Source: Verrucomicrobiota bacterium
GTDB lineage: Bacteria; Verrucomicrobiota; Verrucomicrobiia; Verrucomicrobiales; DEV007
DNA: 15,519 nt
Direction of reading: 5' to 3'
Assembly (NCBI GenBank): GCA_027618625.1
Contig: JAQCER010000010.1
Location: forward strand, 1 to 15,519
In this document: positions 3,358-14,629 of the stretch, in pieces
Layout: each line of letters starts with the position of its first letter
How positions within the stretch are numbered: position 1 is the stretch's first letter
The notes under the pieces: generated by a model
Told to the model about the DNA's origin: nothing
The model's database searches: none
What the model saw: only the letters and a program-made list of their open reading frames with translations
Made by a program: the position numbers and the translations under genes

Positions 3358-6300
3358 ATGAAACCCTCCCACTTGTCCTCCATAGCGGTTATGTTGGGCC
3401 TTGCCGCGAGTCCGTCATGCGATCGCGGAGTGAACCCGGGTCAGTCGGCAAAGGCTGAGGCAGTTTCTGCGCCTGCAATCGTAGGATCGCCTTTGCCACA
3501 ACAAACGTCTGGTTTGAGTGGCGGCAGCTTGTTTGCACGCCTGGATCCAGCGGCTTCTGGTGTCGATTTCGTGAATCCGATCAACAACAACCATCCGCTG
3601 CGCTACTTGTATGCGTCGGCGATGGGGTGCGGGGGTGTGGCTGTTGGAGATGTTGACGGCGATGGACGGCCGGACTTGTATTTCACCGGGGGTGCACGAG
3701 CGAATGCCCTCTACAGGCAGGCTGGTGATTTGAAATTTGAGGACATCACTGCCGCAGCAAACGTTGACAGCAAGCTGGCCTGGAGCACTGGCGCAGCGTT
3801 GGTAGACATCGACAACGATGGCGATCTGGATATCTACGTCTGTAATTACGTCTCGCCCAATCAGCTTTACCTGAACGATGGCAAGGCGATGTTTACGGAG
3901 AGCGCACGAACTTTCGGACTCAATTTTGTAGGAGCAGGGCACACTCCCGCATTTTGTGACTACGATCTTGACGGTGATGTTGACCTTTATTTGATGACCA
4001 ATTTTTACTACGATCCGCGTGGCAAGCGAGAGGAGCCGATCGTTGCAATGGTCGAGGGCAAGCCGGAGGTGCTGCCCCAGTTCAAGAAATACTACGAAGT
4101 TGTCGGTGTCCGTCCGAATGGTGCTGATGGAAACGTCAACGTCGAGCATGACGCTGCAGGGCAACCAGACCGGCTGGTGCAGAATAATGGCGACGGGACC
4201 TTCACCGAAGTAAGCAAGCCTGGTCAGTTTCGCGGCAAGGGCAATGCGATGGTCTGGTGGGATCCGAACGAAGATGGCTTGCCTGATATATATGTGGGCA
4301 ATGACTTCAAGGATCCAGACACCTATTTTGAGAACAAGGGGCAGGGGCAGTTTGAAAATGTGATCAGCGAGCGGGTGCCGCACACTACTTGGTATTCGAT
4401 GGGAGCAGACTCGGCGGATCTGAATGGTGACGGTCACGCTGATTTGATGGTCGCCGACATGTCTGGCACCAATCACTTCAAACAGAAGGTGGGGATGGGC
4501 GCGATGAGCGCCAACGCGGATTTTCTCAACACGGCCGTGCCGCGTCAATACATGCGCAATGCGGTCTACATCAACTCCGGGACAGGAAGGCTGCTTGAAG
4601 CCGCACACTTGACCGGAATGGCGAACTCTGACTGGACGTGGACGGTGCACCTTTCTGACTTCGACAATGATGGCAAAGTGGACGTGTTTCTTACCAACGG
4701 CATGGCCGTGAACCTGAACGTGGCCGACAGTCCAGCAGCGGTCACGGCACTACCCGGCGAGACTGAGTGGGACAAACACATGCGAGCGGGCACCGCGCCA
4801 CTGAAGGAACAGAACCTGGCATTCAACAACAAGGGCGAGCTTGAATTTGAGGATGTGAGCAAGGCCTGGGGCCTTGATCACGTGGGCATGAGCTACGCGG
4901 CTACGGCGGCTGATCTCGACCGTGACGGAGACCTGGAACTCATTGTGACGAACCTTGAGGAACCAGTCGGTATTTACCGGAATGATTCGAGTGGGGCGAA
5001 CCGGATCCTGGTCGAACTGCGCGGCACCCAGAGCAATCGGCGTGGGATTGGTGCGACTGTCAGGGTTAAGACGGCATCTGGCCAGCAGGTGCGGTATCTG
5101 ACGCTGAACCGCGGCTATATGGCAAGTGGAGAGGCAATCGTGCACTTTGGTCTTGGCGACGACGCGCGCATCCAGCGCCTCTCGGTCGACTGGCCGGGTG
5201 GCGGACAGCAGGTGTTTGAAGACCTCGCAGCCAATCAGCATTTTGTGATCACCGAAGCCACGCATGCAGTGCCGCCGCCTGTCGGGGATGAGGTGCTGCC
5301 GATGTTTGCCAAAATGAAGACGACACTCGCCGGAGTGAAGCACCGCGAAACGAACTTCGACGACTACGCCCGGCAGCCATTGCTCCCGCACAAGCACTCA
5401 CAGTTGGGGCCGGGATTGGCGATGGGAGATATCGATGGTGATGGCGACGACGACCTGTTTGTCGGCGGGGCAAAGAGTGATGCCGGCAAGCTGCTGCAGA
5501 ACATGGGTGCGGGCAAATTTGCTCTCGTTGCTTCCGCTGCCCTCGCTCAAGATTCCGATCGCGAGGACATGGGTGCCGTTTTTTTCGACGTGGACAGCGA
5601 TGGAGATCTCGATCTATACGTGGCCAGCGGTGGGGTCGAGTGTGATCCGGGCGACGCTTCGTTGAGGGATCGACTGTATCTGAATGACGGTGCTGGGGAA
5701 TTCTCCGCCGCTGCTCCCGATGTGGTTCCTGACCTTCGCGACAGCGGCTCAGTGGTCACAGCGTGTGACTTTGATATGGATGGTGATCTCGACCTTTTCG
5801 TTGGTGGTCGTGTCATTCCCGGTAGCTACCCGATGCCCGCCCAGAGCCGAATTCTGCGGAATGACGAGGCTCGATTCATTGATGTCACCGATGAAGTGGC
5901 ACCCGGCTTACGTGAATCCGGTCTGGTGACCAGCGCGCTCTGGACGGATGCGACTGGCGACGGAAAGCAAGATCTGATCGTCACTTATGAGTGGGGCCCG
6001 GTTCGGTTGTTCGTGAGCACTGACAGGCAGCTGGTTGATAGTACCGAGCAGGCTGGCCTGGCGGAGCTACAAGGGTGGTGGAATGGTATCGCGGGGAGTG
6101 ACATCGATCATGATGGCGACATCGATTACGCGGTCACGAATCTTGGCTTGAATACCAAGTATCACGCGAGCCCCGAGAAACCGTTGCACCTGTACTACGG
6201 TGATTTTGATGGCTCTGGAGTAATGCAAATCATCGAAGCAGAGTATGAGGATAGTACACTTTATCCGATCCGTGGCCGCAGTTGCTCGTCCTCCGCGATG

Positions 6301-7059
6301 CCCTTCCTGCTTGATAAGTTCGATACTTTCAGCGGCTTTGCCATGGCCTCCGTGCAGGAAATTTACACGCCTACTTCACTGGCAGCTGCGCACGAATTCA
6401 CGGCAAAGGAACTGCGGTCTGGAATTTTGATCAACGATGGTGCGGGAGGGTTCGAGTTTCGACCGCTGCCCCGCATCGCGCAGATCGCACCGGGGTTTGG
6501 TGCCGTCCCCATTGATGTGAATGGTGACGGGAACCCCGACTTGTATATCGCTCAGAACTTCTTCAGCCCGCAAGCGGAGACTGGGCACATGGCAGGTGGT
6601 GTCAGTCAACTTCTCCTGGGCGATGGCAAAGGGCACTTTGCCGCAGTCGATGCCCTGCACAGTGGTCTCGTGGTTTCGGGCGATGCGAAGAGCCTGGTGC
6701 AGGCGGACCTCGATGGCGATGGCAGGACGGATTTTATCGTCGGTGTGAACGACGCTGCCTTGGAGGTGTTTCAGCGGACCGGCAGCGCTACAGGAGCAGA
6801 TCCGATTGCGATTCGGTTGGTGGGGAAGGCTGGCAATGCAACAGCGGTCGGTTCCCGCGTTTCCGTGAAGACTGGGGAATTCACCCAGACTGCCGAAGTT
6901 TACTCCGGATCTGGCTACCTTTCGCAAGGTTCGGCCGCGCTGACGTTTGTCAGGGTGGGGAATGGGCAGCCACAGATTGAGGTGCGCTGGCCCGACGGCA
7001 ACACGTCTGTGGTGGACAGCCCTGAGGGGATTAATATCGAAATCGCACAGCCGGAGTAA
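3358..7059 (+). CDS. Double CRTAC1-type FG-GAP/VCBS protein with two ASPIC/UnbV domains, 1233 aa
   Basis: The N-terminus has a hydrophobic stretch and a cysteine at residue 21 (ASPSC-D), an atypical lipobox, so it is exported and possibly lipid-anchored. About fourteen calcium-binding-type loops (DxDxDGxxD) recur, for example near residues 98, 151, 201, 302, 355, 435, 520, 691, 744, 804, 864, 916, 1053 and 1118. This is the signature of FG-GAP/VCBS blades of beta-propellers. An ASPIC/UnbV domain lies at about 543-631 (ending in strands such as 'VDWPGGGQQVFEDL'). A second, more diverged one closes the protein at about 1146-1231 (RWPDGNTSVVDSP). The architecture is two CRTAC1-like units in tandem, seen in large exported proteins of Bacteroidota and PVC bacteria; no enzymatic role is established for them. 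The gene follows the oxidoreductase by 198 bp, with no clear promoter or ribosome site in the gap. The ATG at 3358 is supported by the signal sequence. Stop TAA. Confidence 0.9.
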   Translation: MKPSHLSSIAVMLGLAASPSCDRGVNPGQSAKAEAVSAPAIVGSPLPQQTSGLSGGSLFARLDPAASGVDFVNPINNNHPLRYLYASAMGCGGVAVGDVDGDGRPDLYFTGGARANALYRQAGDLKFEDITAAANVDSKLAWSTGAALVDIDNDGDLDIYVCNYVSPNQLYLNDGKAMFTESARTFGLNFVGAGHTPAFCDYDLDGDVDLYLMTNFYYDPRGKREEPIVAMVEGKPEVLPQFKKYYEVVGVRPNGADGNVNVEHDAAGQPDRLVQNNGDGTFTEVSKPGQFRGKGNAMVWWDPNEDGLPDIYVGNDFKDPDTYFENKGQGQFENVISERVPHTTWYSMGADSADLNGDGHADLMVADMSGTNHFKQKVGMGAMSANADFLNTAVPRQYMRNAVYINSGTGRLLEAAHLTGMANSDWTWTVHLSDFDNDGKVDVFLTNGMAVNLNVADSPAAVTALPGETEWDKHMRAGTAPLKEQNLAFNNKGELEFEDVSKAWGLDHVGMSYAATAADLDRDGDLELIVTNLEEPVGIYRNDSSGANRILVELRGTQSNRRGIGATVRVKTASGQQVRYLTLNRGYMASGEAIVHFGLGDDARIQRLSVDWPGGGQQVFEDLAANQHFVITEATHAVPPPVGDEVLPMFAKMKTTLAGVKHRETNFDDYARQPLLPHKHSQLGPGLAMGDIDGDGDDDLFVGGAKSDAGKLLQNMGAGKFALVASAALAQDSDREDMGAVFFDVDSDGDLDLYVASGGVECDPGDASLRDRLYLNDGAGEFSAAAPDVVPDLRDSGSVVTACDFDMDGDLDLFVGGRVIPGSYPMPAQSRILRNDEARFIDVTDEVAPGLRESGLVTSALWTDATGDGKQDLIVTYEWGPVRLFVSTDRQLVDSTEQAGLAELQGWWNGIAGSDIDHDGDIDYAVTNLGLNTKYHASPEKPLHLYYGDFDGSGVMQIIEAEYEDSTLYPIRGRSCSSSAMPFLLDKFDTFSGFAMASVQEIYTPTSLAAAHEFTAKELRSGILINDGAGGFEFRPLPRIAQIAPGFGAVPIDVNGDGNPDLYIAQNFFSPQAETGHMAGGVSQLLLGDGKGHFAAVDALHSGLVVSGDAKSLVQADLDGDGRTDFIVGVNDAALEVFQRTGSATGADPIAIRLVGKAGNATAVGSRVSVKTGEFTQTAEVYSGSGYLSQGSAALTFVRVGNGQPQIEVRWPDGNTSVVDSPEGINIEIAQPE

Positions 7060-9921: not shown

Positions 9922-12348
9922 ATGTTTCTGATGAAACGCACTCAGAACAACACCAGCCAACGAGATGCGACACTTTCCAACCGCCTTCTTCGAGGGGCGG
10001 TGTTGAATGTTCTGCTGTTGGTTTCGACGGTTGGCGTGTTGAACTCGGCGGCTCAACAACCCTCCTCTGGGGCTGCCACCGATCAAGTCCTGGACGAGGC
10101 AAAGCAGAAGGCGATCTGGGATGCTGAACATGTGACCTTTGAAATCGAGTGGCGCTTCGGCAAGCCCTTTCTGGAAGCGCTGAAAGCGAGAGACGAAAAG
10201 GCGGCCGCAAAGTGGTTTCACAAGAATTTTCGCGGGGCGACGATTTCCAACCCATCCGAAGTGCAGACTCGGAGGAAAGGCGAGGTGGTTGAAATCAGTC
10301 GCGGCGCGGATTCGAAATCTGCTGCGGATGCCAGCGTGGCTGACGTGATGGCTGCGCTTCTGGCACAGATCAAACCTGTAGCGGAGATCGAGCGGGCGGG
10401 GTTGCGCGTTCTCTATATTAACAACGAGGGTGGCCAAAAGTGGTCGACCAGCATTCTTCTGAGCGCTTCCGGAAAGAGTGGCGATGGCGGGCTCATTGCA
10501 GTCGACAGCAAGCACCAGGTGGTTTTTGAGATCGAGGATGATGCCGAATTTGTCACCGGTCCATGCATTGCCACGTGGAAGATAAGCAGTGAGCGCCAGT
10601 GGACATCTCCGACGCAGTTGATGGAGGAAATTACATCGACGAGCGGACTGACACTGGCTCCCGTCGTAGACAACTGGAAACTCCCCAAGGGTAAAGTCCG
10701 CCGCCAGTTTCCGTCCCAATTAGCCGTAGAAGATTTTGATCGCGACGGTTTTCTAGACATCGCGATTGCGACCATCGACGGGCCGAGTGCGCTGTTCCGA
10801 TCAGTGGACGGAAAGCAGTTCAAAGTTGTGAACGTGCCTTTCAAAGTGAAGCCGATGAGCACGCGCAAGATGCGTTCGCTGGCGACGTGGATTGATTTCA
10901 ACAACGACGGATTCCCCGACCTTCTGCTGGGCGATCGCGTTTACCGGAACGACGGCGGGAAGAGCTTCGCTGACATTACGGCAGAATCAGGACTCAAGTT
11001 TCCACAACACCAGATGGGTGCTGCCGTCGCCGACTACGATGGCGATGGATTGCTCGACCTTTACATTTTATATCAATACTCAAGCGAAACCAGTCCCGGC
11101 GATCCTGGGATATTGCCATGGGTCGGTGATGCGATTTCCGGTGCGCCCAATGCGTTGTGGAGAAATCTTGGAGACGGTCGCTTTGAGGATGTCACAGAGA
11201 AGAGCGGGGCTGGCGGAGGTTTGCACAATTCGTTTGCAGCAGTGTGGCTGTATGCCGACGATGATCGGCATCCCGATCTCTATGTAGCGAATGACTTTGG
11301 CAAAAACAATCTGCTGCGAAATCGTGGTGATGGCACCTTCGAAGACATTTCTGCCCAGTCAGGAGTCGCTGATTTTGCCACCAGTATGGGCGTGGCTGCC
11401 GGGGACATCGACAATGATGGGCGGACCGAAATCTACGTCGCCAATATGTATTCGAAAATGGGGCGTCGCATCATTGCTCACGTTGGCGAGGCTGACTATG
11501 CGGCTGGGATTTACGAGCAGATCAAAGGAGCCTGCGCCGGAAATCGCCTTTACAAGCGAGACGCCAAGGGCGGCTATTCCGAATGGAGCGAATCCTGGGG
11601 GATCAACGATGTCGGCTGGGCATATGCGCCGGCGATTGCGGATCTCGATAATGATGGCTTGCTCGACATTTATGCCACCACGGGCTTCATGAGTTTCGAT
11701 CGCAACAAGCCTGACGGATGAACGTGCATGTGGCGGGCTGTCGTGTCACAGCCCTTAAACAGACAAAGCAGCATCGAAGCGCTTGGCGATATCGACAAGG
11801 AGGCGGGAGAATTCTGGGTCGAGAACCCGTTTATGATGCCCGAGAACGGCGAGAATCTGAGCGCTTATGAGCGAAACCGCACGTTTCTCAACGTGGATGG
11901 CAACTCGTTCATTGATGTTTCGTTTGCTTCGGTTGCAGATATCGATTCGGACTCCCGAAGTGTCGTTGCCGCAGATTTCGATCGCGACGGTGCCACCGAC
12001 TTGCTGGTGGGATCGGTTGGCGGTGGGCCGTTGCGGTTGTTCCTAAATCGCTATCCGAACGGCAACCACGTTCGTATCCAGCTGGTGGGCAACCAAAGCA
12101 ATCGACCAGGAATCGGTGCAAGACTGATCGCGAAAGCCGGATCTCGCCAGGTGGTGCGCGATGTTTTTCCAGCCAATGGTTTCAAGGGGCAGGGGCCGGT
12201 CGATACTGTCATTGGACTAGGAGAGGCAAAGCGTATCGAGAATCTTGAAATCCTCTGGCCAAGTGGGCTGGTGCAGAAATTGAATGATCTCCCTGCCGGG
12301 ATCGGTATCACCATCACGGAAGGCCAGAGCGAGTTCCATGTTAAGTAA
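9922..12348 (+). CDS. Candidate selenoprotein: CRTAC1-type FG-GAP/ASPIC protein, 808 aa with Sec600
   Basis: Residues 1-45 carry basic residues, a hydrophobic core (about 23-37) and an A-x-A-like cleavage region (NSAAQQ), a Sec signal. Residues 50-260 are a mixed domain I cannot name. FG-GAP calcium loops follow near 271, 325, 371, 446, 495, 574 and 685, and an ASPIC/UnbV domain closes the protein (about 714-803). One in-frame TGA (11719-11721) falls at codon 600, after 'FMSFDRNKPDG' and before 'TCMWRAVVSQ'. The same frame then runs on for 208 sense codons with full family similarity, so no frameshift is involved. A hairpin with bacterial SECIS geometry follows the TGA. I infer that TGA encodes selenocysteine, giving a U600-T-C602 motif. 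If not read through, the product would be a 599-aa protein lacking its ASPIC domain, and 11728-12348 would be an orphan tail. Alternatives are a nonsense mutation or a sequencing error. The start could also be the ATG at 9931; neither start has a clear ribosome site. The 3' end overlaps the next gene by 11 bp. Confidence 0.78.
11719..11721 (+). other. In-frame UGA codon, candidate selenocysteine insertion site
   Basis: The TGA is preceded by GAC GGA and followed by ACG TGC ATG TGG, giving D-G-U-T-C-M-W. A cysteine two residues downstream makes a UxC motif, a plausible redox pair. This is the only in-frame stop across 808 codons, and reading continues in the same phase. The genome evidently also uses TGA for termination (the helicase gene at 7145), which argues against a reassigned genetic code. 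Confidence 0.72.
11735..11754 (+). promoter_or_regulatory. Candidate bacterial SECIS hairpin
   Basis: GGGCTGT (11735-11741) pairs perfectly with ACAGCCC (11748-11754) around the loop CGTGTC (11742-11747). The loop has G in its second position, matching the conserved loop guanosine of bacterial SECIS elements. Twenty nucleotides separate the TGA from the loop, inside the spacing range I recall for the family (about 16-37). A short lower helix is possible between TGT (11729-11731) and ACA (11759-11761) across an internal loop. A competing pairing, TGTG 11729-11732 with CACA 11747-11750, is weaker. No T-run follows, so it is not an intrinsic terminator. Confidence 0.7.
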
Positions 12349-14629
12349 TTCTGCGAATTCTACGAGTAAGGTGTCCTCCGTGGGAGCTGCACTTCTCATG
12401 CTGCTCAGCATCAGTTGTGACTCTGGCGTGACCAAGACGGCATCGGAGGAAACGAACGAAAATCCGGCGCTGGCTTCGCATCAGAGAATGGTTCGCGCTT
12501 TGGCGAAGATCGCGGAAGAGGATGCTCGCCTGAATCCTTACTACAGTGATCTGCGTGTGCGGCGATTGACTGCGGCCCTGGCAGGATTTCCCTCTGCAGC
12601 GACGGCGATGGAGAAGGCGCCGATCCTTGCCAGCCTGGGATTGGCGCAGATGGACTACGGCCAATTGGACGAGAGTATCGCCAACTTGCGCAAGGCGTAC
12701 GATGCCTTTGCTTCAAGCCCGGATCCTGGCCGGACTTTAGGTGAAGTGGCGTTCGCGCTGGGAGTTGCTAATCTCCGCCTCGCAGAGACCGAGAATTGTT
12801 GTGCCAATCACACGCCCGACAGTTGCATCCTGCCGATCCAGGGCGACGCAATTCACAAAGTGAGACGGGGGTCGGAGGCGGCGATCAAATATTTTGCCGA
12901 GGCGATTGAAAACGAGAGCATGCCTGAGCGAAGCAGGCAGAAGAGCACCTGGTTGCTGAATCTCGCCTACATGACACTCGGCGAGTATCCAGCGAAAGTG
13001 CCGCCACTCTATCGCCTGCCGGAGAATGTTTTCCAGTCGGGTATAGCGGTTCCGAAGATGCCAAACGTTGCCGGGAAACTTGGCTTGGACACTGACAGCA
13101 TGTCGGGTGGTGTCGCGATCGACGACTTTGACGGCGACTTGCTTCTTGATGTAGTAGTGTCGAGCTGGGATGCATCTTTCCCGATGAAATATTTTGAGAA
13201 TCGCGGCAAAGACGGCTTCGCGGAGCGTTCCAGGGACGCGGGTTTCGAGGGAATGCTTGGGGGGTTCAATTTGATCACAGCCGACTACGACAACGACGGG
13301 GATGTGGACATCTATGTTACTCGGGGTGCCTGGCTGGGTGAGCTTGGGAAGCGACCGAACTCGCTTCTGCAAAATCAGGGAGACGGCACTTTTCTGGACG
13401 TGACTTACATGGTTGGGCTGGGTGAAGACCACTACCCGTCACAGACTGCTGCCTGGGCGGATTATGACAACGATGGCGATCTCGATCTCTTCGTCGGCAA
13501 CGAGCACAAGGACGGTGAGCTGGAGCTTGACGGAGGGATCGAAGGTACAGAAGAAGTGATCGCGCCCTGTCAGTTGTTCAGGAACAACGGTGACGGCACT
13601 TTCACCGACGTTGCCGAAGAGGCTGGCGTGACTAATCTTCGCTTCACCAAGGGCAGTACCTGGGCGGACATCGATGGCGATCGCTTTCCTGATCTGATCC
13701 TGTCGAACCTATCCGGCGAGAACCGGCTTTTCCACAATCAGCAGGATGGCTCGTTCTTCGATATCGTTGCCCAGGCCGGGATTCAGGAACCGTACGTAAG
13801 CTTCCCTGTATGGACCTGGGACTTCGATAACGACGGTGTGGTCGACATTTTCATCTCCTCATTCCGCGGCTCCACTGACAGTTACATGATGCATGCGCTG
13901 GGGCAAAAATATCCCATGCCGTCCGGTCATTACCGCGGAAATGGCGATGGCACCTTCACCAATGTGGCGGAAGAGCAGAAGCTCGATGCACCAATGCTGA
14001 CCATGGGGGCCAACTTCGGCGATATCAACAATGACGGCTACCTCGACTTCTACGTCGGCACTGGCCAGCCGGACATTTCCATCCTCGTTCCCAACATGCT
14101 GTTCGTGAATCAACACGGGAAACGCTTCCATGATGTGACCATGGCGAGCGGGCTTGGGCACTTACAAAAAGGACACGCGATTGCCTTCGCAGATCTGGAT
14201 CAGGATGGTGATCAAGATATCTTTGCACAGATGGGAGGTGCCCGGCGCGTCGACAGTTTCCGCGATGCGCTCTACGCGAATCGCGGCGGTACCCCAAATC
14301 GATGGATCACAGTGAGGCTGGTCGGAGTCACGTCGAACCGCTCAGCAATCGGTGCCCGTCTCAAAGTGACGATTACCGAGAAAGGGGAGCAACGTGCCAT
14401 CTACCGATGGGTCAACACCGGTGCCAGCTTTGGCGCAAATCCATTGAGGCAGCACATCGGAATCGGCACTGCCAGCGCAGTCGATAGTCTGGAAGTCTAC
14501 TGGCCGACTTCTGACACGACGCAGGAATTCAAGAACCTTCCCGTTGGGAAAATGATCGAGATTCATGAGGACAGTGACGCTGTGAAGACGATAGATCTGG
14601 AGTCGTTCCCCTTTGTTCCGAACCTTTAA
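12338..14629 (+). CDS. TPR plus FG-GAP/VCBS plus ASPIC (CRTAC1-type) putative lipoprotein, 763 aa
   Basis: The N-terminus has a hydrophobic segment and LSISC-D with Cys27, a lipobox-like site, so lipid anchoring is likely. About residues 45-225 are helical and TPR-like, for example 'LASLGLAQMDYGQLDESIAN' and a later 'WLLNLAYMTLGEYP'. Inside lies a Cys/His cluster: C154, C155, H158 and C163 in 'ENCCANHTPDSCILPI'. FG-GAP calcium loops follow near 262, 316, 375, 444, 495, 562 and 619, then an ASPIC/UnbV domain at about 654-745. The frame is open to an earlier ATG at 12284, but the ATG at 12338 puts the signal peptide at the N-terminus. It overlaps the upstream stop by 11 bp, so translational coupling with the candidate selenoprotein is likely. 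The Cys/His cluster could bind a metal or form disulfides; that is inference. No enzymatic residue set is evident. Stop TAA. Confidence 0.88.
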   Translation: MLSNSANSTSKVSSVGAALLMLLSISCDSGVTKTASEETNENPALASHQRMVRALAKIAEEDARLNPYYSDLRVRRLTAALAGFPSAATAMEKAPILASLGLAQMDYGQLDESIANLRKAYDAFASSPDPGRTLGEVAFALGVANLRLAETENCCANHTPDSCILPIQGDAIHKVRRGSEAAIKYFAEAIENESMPERSRQKSTWLLNLAYMTLGEYPAKVPPLYRLPENVFQSGIAVPKMPNVAGKLGLDTDSMSGGVAIDDFDGDLLLDVVVSSWDASFPMKYFENRGKDGFAERSRDAGFEGMLGGFNLITADYDNDGDVDIYVTRGAWLGELGKRPNSLLQNQGDGTFLDVTYMVGLGEDHYPSQTAAWADYDNDGDLDLFVGNEHKDGELELDGGIEGTEEVIAPCQLFRNNGDGTFTDVAEEAGVTNLRFTKGSTWADIDGDRFPDLILSNLSGENRLFHNQQDGSFFDIVAQAGIQEPYVSFPVWTWDFDNDGVVDIFISSFRGSTDSYMMHALGQKYPMPSGHYRGNGDGTFTNVAEEQKLDAPMLTMGANFGDINNDGYLDFYVGTGQPDISILVPNMLFVNQHGKRFHDVTMASGLGHLQKGHAIAFADLDQDGDQDIFAQMGGARRVDSFRDALYANRGGTPNRWITVRLVGVTSNRSAIGARLKVTITEKGEQRAIYRWVNTGASFGANPLRQHIGIGTASAVDSLEVYWPTSDTTQEFKNLPVGKMIEIHEDSDAVKTIDLESFPFVPNL

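Follow-up and report, generated by a model that had tools for sequence, protein, structure and literature searches.

Selenocysteine (Sec) is very probably the residue encoded by UGA 600 of a CRTAC1-like gene from a Verrucomicrobiota bacterium, judging from the conservation of the codon, the RNA that follows it and the selenium genes of the genome. The gene lies in a stretch of 15,519 nucleotides, called the window here. A stop codon seems to split the gene in two, but the two parts very probably encode a single selenium-containing protein. The selenoprotein interpretation of the original prediction, which was made from the DNA letters alone, is supported by a conserved TGA, by a hairpin that fits the bacterial SECIS (bSECIS) and by tRNA-Sec, selA and selD. 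We have high confidence that a family of Sec-decoded, CRTAC1-like propellers is the best explanation overall.

The gene and its conserved TGA

The features of the gene are as follows, with their basis in brackets.

9922..12348, + strand: candidate selenoprotein gene, CRTAC1-like FG-GAP propeller plus ASPIC, 808 residues, Sec at residue 600 (ORFs, Pfam, orthologues)
9922..10074, + strand: N-terminal region with a hydrophobic stretch, a putative export signal (sequence, by eye)
11719..11721, + strand: in-frame TGA, putative selenocysteine, residue 600, motif KPDG-U-TC (orthologue TGA, tRNA-Sec/selA/selD)
11735..11754, + strand: bSECIS hairpin, 7-bp stem GGGCUGU/ACAGCCC, loop CGUGUC, loop start 20 nt past the UGA (bSECIS model, codon conservation)
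11722..12345, + strand: 208 post-TGA codons including the ASPIC/UnbV domain, residues 730-792 (frame, Pfam, dN/dS)

An open reading frame of 599 codons (9922-11721) ends at the TGA at 11719-11721. The same frame continues past it for 208 sense codons and is closed by a TAA at 12346-12348. Pfam identifies FG-GAP repeats and, in the post-TGA part, UnbV_ASPIC (730-792), all above cut-offs. The single in-frame TGA, the same-frame extension and the ASPIC domain beyond it were all features of the original prediction and are borne out by the ORFs and Pfam. NCBIfam has no model that scores above its cut-off for the window protein. The predicted model of the protein has the CRTAC1 fold when compared with 9etn_A. 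Murine CRTAC1 (PDB 9etn), of the CRTAC1/ASPIC-UnbV FG-GAP type, and the window protein share the FG-GAP repeats, the ASPIC domain and the predicted fold. In contrast to murine CRTAC1, the window family is bacterial, carries Sec as the opening residue of a predicted helix and includes many paralogues with further C-terminal domains. Viral NTF2-like and polyketide-cyclase-like proteins also match the model weakly (E of 1e-3 or higher), perhaps through the N-terminal part that precedes the propeller. Several orthologues carry a lipobox-like Gly-Cys near the N-terminus, as seen by eye. The window contains three CRTAC1-like genes in total; the two further FG-GAP/ASPIC genes, at 3358-7059 and 12344-14629, are without an in-frame TGA.

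The TGA is conserved across orthologues. A DNA scan of genome contigs yielded 24 loci, and TGA occupies the site in all 21 orthologous loci that span it. The other three gave no orthologous site: L037 ends short of it, L039 is distant, and in L038, on a Fuerstiella contig, a window-type orthologue is broken between frames around the Sec site. The L038 contig also bears a TGA-containing paralogue of the UL group, which is defined below. When identical DNA stretches are counted once, which leaves out L021, there are 22 distinct sites including the window. The frame after the TGA extends for 201-219 codons in 21 of these and for 168 codons in a partial match, L041. For the post-TGA part, six of nine orthologue pairs give dN/dS ratios of 0.07-0.12 (for instance L018-L020: 0.020/0.249), and the other three pairs are near saturation. 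Judged by sequence comparison, purifying selection acts on both sides of the TGA. A pseudogene or a sequencing error would account for a stop within an otherwise complete domain architecture. This is hardly credible in view of the selection, the presence of the TGA in every orthologous locus of two phyla, and the many other TGA-bearing members among the matches listed in one genome (17, as described below).

The region could alternatively hold two genes, one for a 599-residue propeller and one for a short ASPIC protein that begins at about 11728. An ATG is indeed present at 11728, and database entries begin or end near the TGA site. The best 120 database matches listed for the window protein reach at most 74% coverage, so its C-terminal part is either missing from them or listed apart. 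However, the start codon is not conserved, as the codon at this position is ATG in just 3 of the 22 distinct sites, window included. The frame and the residues between the TGA and the ATG are conserved in the alignment, and 11 homologues (within P0122-P0135) exist in one piece. The original prediction also held that no ribosome site supports a separate gene at 11728. There is none before this ATG, but the gene's own start at 9922 also has no Shine-Dalgarno-like stretch, and the absence thus does not discriminate. Taken together, the unconserved start, the conserved frame and the one-piece homologues make a pair of genes very improbable.

Several in-frame TGAs within one genome might also reflect a genome-wide reassignment of UGA. 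The chance of this is negligible, because each listed copy has a single TGA and the lhr-like gene of the window uses TGA as its final stop. The orthologues end with TAA, TAG or TGA. The final stop of L022 and L025 is TGA, which indicates that TGA remains a working stop.

No shared neighbourhood of the orthologues was seen in 15 loci, viewed as ORFs with their first residues. Near three orthologues lie ORFs with at least six CxxC motifs (L024:2710-3861, L025:8586-9752 and L026:6290-7450), which are perhaps multihaem cytochromes; the other 12 loci viewed are without them.

The bSECIS hairpin and the selenium machinery

A SECIS-like hairpin at the right distance from the UGA had been predicted, and the hairpin agrees with the published bSECIS constraints. 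Its loop begins 20 nt past the UGA, its stem has 7 bp, its loop is CGUGUC and its energy is -11.1 kcal/mol, all within the limits set out in section 5 of PMC13188914. In our own implementation of these limits, 57 of 76 family sites pass, window included, and 19 miss the strict thresholds. Among the controls, 4 of 137 ordinary TGA stops pass, and synonymous shuffles pass at rates of 3.6%, 5.7% and 6.1%. The TGA sites form groups that are named here by motif, with names coined in this analysis: UG (DGUTC, the motif of the window), UL (DLUSFFWR and like) and UV (VDLUS or LDLUS). The test is passed by 16 of 22 UG, 33 of 45 UL and 8 of 9 UV sites.

The hairpin is directly visible in the near-frozen choice of codons that overlie it. 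In UG, codon 7 after the UGA is GTC and codon 8 is GTG in 22 of 22 sites, and codon 10 is CAG in 20 of 20. The 54 UL and UV sites likewise use GTC (50/52), GTG (44/44) and TCG (27/27) after the UGA. Codon variation from codon 11 onward is similar to the background. The restriction lies partly outside the hairpin, since all 51 serines at codon 1 in UL and UV are encoded by AGY.

Covariation is evident in the UL stem (45 sequences), where 98.1% of cells are paired and 29 double changes occur, compared with 3.2 on average in the shuffles. When this stem is slid, 19-65% of cells pair. Two of five measures for the UL stem are often matched by shuffles, namely covarying pairs (95/500) and pair types (355/500). 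The UG stem is nearly invariant and its covariation is weak, with two double-change cells and a score of 0.154 in a slid version versus 0.090 for the stem itself. The fold energy of the window site does not differ significantly from that of dinucleotide shuffles (z -0.34). Against synonymous versions, the mean z values are -1.1 and -1.5, and the 5% level or better is reached at 7 sites out of 22 and at 14 out of 54. As the energies are only moderate, the case for the hairpin relies on the frozen codons, the covariation and the full bSECIS test. Rfam gave no match in the window at the gathering threshold. A model of the UL SECIS matches L163 (G000 C60:4641-4673) with an E of 5.9e-4. No TGA-bearing family gene was seen around this locus, and the match is probably due to chance; the 12 better matches to the model are TGA family sites, some of which were used in building it.

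In the genome of the window, tRNA-Sec scores 62.3 bits against a cut-off of 47 and is also called by ARAGORN. The genome further contains selA (482 bits) and selD (263 bits, within a 765-residue frame). The original prediction called for a check of selA, selB, selC and selD; all except selB are present in the genome itself, and selB is present in a genome of the same genus (G001, 283 bits). A profile search found no selB in the window's own assembly, which is 71% complete. The matches to the selB profile in the window's genome are all below cut-off, and one of them, L011, appears to be IF-2 by sequence. Among 20 genomes with TGA copies, 17 have selB, and the other three are 71%, 80% and 85% complete. 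The distribution of selA follows that of the TGA copies. It was found in 20 of 20 genomes with listed TGA copies versus 6 of the 37 others (p 1.9e-10 by Fisher's test, ignoring kinship), where the selA of two TGA genomes, G008 and G024, consists of fragments below cut-off. Across 387 genomes of the phylum, selA is present in 27. A strict pattern for the site matched three of the 387; two have TGA, and both of these have selA, and one (G159) has GTC.

On contig C775 of the window's genome (G000; L130, L071), selD is followed on the same strand by three TGA-bearing CRTAC1 genes and by an 896-residue ORF that is LamG-like by eye. The selD region of this contig is a candidate selenium gene cluster.

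The UGA could also be read through without selenium, by insertion of another amino acid or as a programmed event, with the hairpin as a readthrough stimulator. At this column, relatives that lack Sec tolerate residues such as Asn, Ser and Gly, and Sec chemistry may therefore not be needed there. However, the family sites have TGA alone and never TAA or TAG, the TGA copies co-occur with selA, the hairpin fits the bSECIS spacing and loop, and the genome has tRNA-Sec. Readthrough of this kind is accordingly very unlikely. Decoding as Sec would proceed by the ordinary bacterial SelB/tRNA-Sec route, steered by the bSECIS hairpin within the coding sequence.

Family size and relatives without selenocysteine

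The family search covered 57 related genomes, and each listed copy carries exactly one TGA. Among the matches listed, the window's genome has 17 single-TGA members out of 22 matches at E 0.001, while the same-genus genome has 12 and G034 has 14. When the codon at the site was left free in a DNA pattern, 73 matches were obtained in the 57 relatives versus 12 for a reversed-pattern control. The free codon is TGA in 67 of the 73 and is never TAA, TAG or a Cys codon. The six remaining matches have GAA, GGC, TCA, TCG, CAG and CAA, and at their loci no tblastn match across the site was found at 1e-10. These results point to a selenoprotein family, rich in paralogues and present in both Planctomycetota and Verrucomicrobiota, whose members are truncated by gene-calling programs. 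In G010, where selA is present, the match (L059, L146) is confined to the post-Sec part and is without an internal stop.

An alignment across the site has 76 TGA rows and 16 Cys rows at the column; four more rows (two Glu, one Asn and one Gly) represent earlier repeats, and another 208 fall short of the column. In a tree of 98 rows, the UL, UV and Cys groups each occupy one side of a branch, and UG is intermingled with relatives without Sec. The window's gene is placed with Verrucomicrobiota rows, and the remaining UG rows are from Planctomycetota. The tree was made by a quick method with a midpoint root, and rows with fewer than 330 residues before the Sec or 190 after it were excluded.

The original prediction proposed that homologues be aligned across the TGA, where Sec or Cys should appear in the same column. 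The orthologous loci uniformly have TGA, as described above, and Cys occurs in one separate subfamily (16 sequences with DYC[TS]xFW and like). Homologues with neither Sec nor Cys were to count against the prediction, and these are found in part. In the 11 closest full-length, stop-free homologues (among P0122-P0135), the column holds G, S, E, A, V, A, D, A, S, S and D and no Cys, and the fused family has mostly Asn or Ser. For the latter, the 120 matches listed of 4608 comprise Asn 39, Ser 27, Leu 15, Gly 8, Cys 7, Asp 7, Ala 5, Glu 4, Met 4, gap 2, His 1 and Gln 1, with the Leu and Met rows mostly aligning poorly. This sample appears to lean toward non-Sec forms, because Sec forms would seldom be whole in a protein collection defined from stop to stop. 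With Asn, Ser or Gly in this place, a simple Sec/Cys story loses support, but Sec decoding does not. The Asn and Ser forms would make the family a good case for the gain and loss of selenium dependence.

Compared with the known bSECIS selenoproteins in Table 1 of PMC13188914, the family is alike in its UGA, in a bSECIS within the 16-37 nt range and in selA, selC and selD (selB in relatives). It differs from them in that, among the database relatives seen, Cys takes the place of Sec less often than Asn, Ser or Gly does.

The CxxC domain, a proposed role and known systems

Many Sec paralogues are fused to a further domain, as is evident from their sequences. Pfam places a redoxin/AhpC-TSA domain after ASPIC in three of five UL proteins scanned, TPRs in four of these five, and a redoxin in one of three UV proteins scanned. 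Past ASPIC, 44 of the 45 UL proteins and 4 of the 9 UV proteins have a CxxC; the one UL protein without it is truncated by a contig end. The Pfam result and the frame show no redoxin with CxxC after ASPIC in the window gene, which stops after ASPIC.

The CxxC is retained together with Sec. Once aligned, the CxxC is intact in all 32 Sec proteins versus 21 of 98 relatives without Sec (kinship ignored). This comparison omits 11 of the 109 database proteins, which lack the sequence motif, and 13 of the 45 UL proteins, which are too short. Sorted by column residue, the CxxC is intact in 0 of 39 proteins with Asn, 7 of 27 with Ser and 3 of 7 with Cys. The relatives without Sec include CRTAC1-redoxin-TPR proteins, some of them labelled Acidobacteriota. 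They share FG-GAP, ASPIC, often redoxin and TPR, and a DLxSFFWRQVV motif with the Sec proteins; they differ in a column that is mostly Asn or Ser and in the infrequent CxxC. Cys 602 (of UxC) and Cys 538 are present in all aligned Sec orthologues and in 4 and 5, respectively, of 11 non-Sec relatives.

From these features we infer Sec insertion, export, an electron relay and a reaction, as follows. A single protein would comprise a calcium-loop beta-propeller and ASPIC, with the UGA-encoded Sec opening a predicted helix (motif UxC in the window protein). The protein would be exported, and Sec would be its redox residue, acting on an oxidized substrate outside the cytoplasm. A thioredoxin-like domain would re-reduce the Sec. 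Most paralogues carry this domain fused. The window protein is without it, and its reductant would presumably act in trans. The co-retention of CxxC and Sec is read as a relay, and this redox-relay role of Sec is put forward tentatively, at somewhat less than an even chance. The link between Sec and the CxxC domain offers a direct test of the role of Sec on the propeller.

A broader picture seems about evenly balanced between right and wrong. It describes a large selenoproteome of one family, in which exported Sec propellers, mostly fused to a recharging TlpA-like thioredoxin domain, would reach at least 17 copies in one genome. Loss of selenium use would lead to Asn or Ser at the column and to decay of the redoxin site, and the redox module would be located on a beta-propeller and not on a thioredoxin fold.

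The 2026 inventory of prokaryotic selenoproteins, in section 7 of PMC13188914, has 119 families and subfamilies, none of them FG-GAP, CRTAC1 or ASPIC; the sources of the table in that paper include PMC12013261 and PMC9879109. A search of a limited paper collection, main texts only, found no literature on Sec in FG-GAP, CRTAC1 or ASPIC proteins. The architecture was originally proposed as possibly undescribed, in keeping with its absence from that section of the inventory, and the family is undescribed in the literature searched. If true, this is a selenoprotein family on a fold that the 2026 inventory does not contain, with many paralogues per genome. According to PMC12013277, the largest bacterial selenogenome examined by deep-Sep has at least 46 selenoprotein genes. 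The 17 listed members of one family outside the inventory, in a single genome, suggest that selenogenome totals may miss this family.

The DUF3179 selenoproteins, listed in Table 1 of PMC13188914, are related to the family through four proteins (P0129, P0130, P0133 and P0136) in which DUF3179 follows ASPIC; a Pfam rerun covered P0129 and P0136. The DUF3179 selenoproteins differ from the window gene, which is without DUF3179, in having a different domain and their own Sec motif in that table. The four protein records start past the Sec site and run from ASPIC to DUF3179, and the whole genes may be fusions of propeller, Sec, ASPIC and DUF3179.
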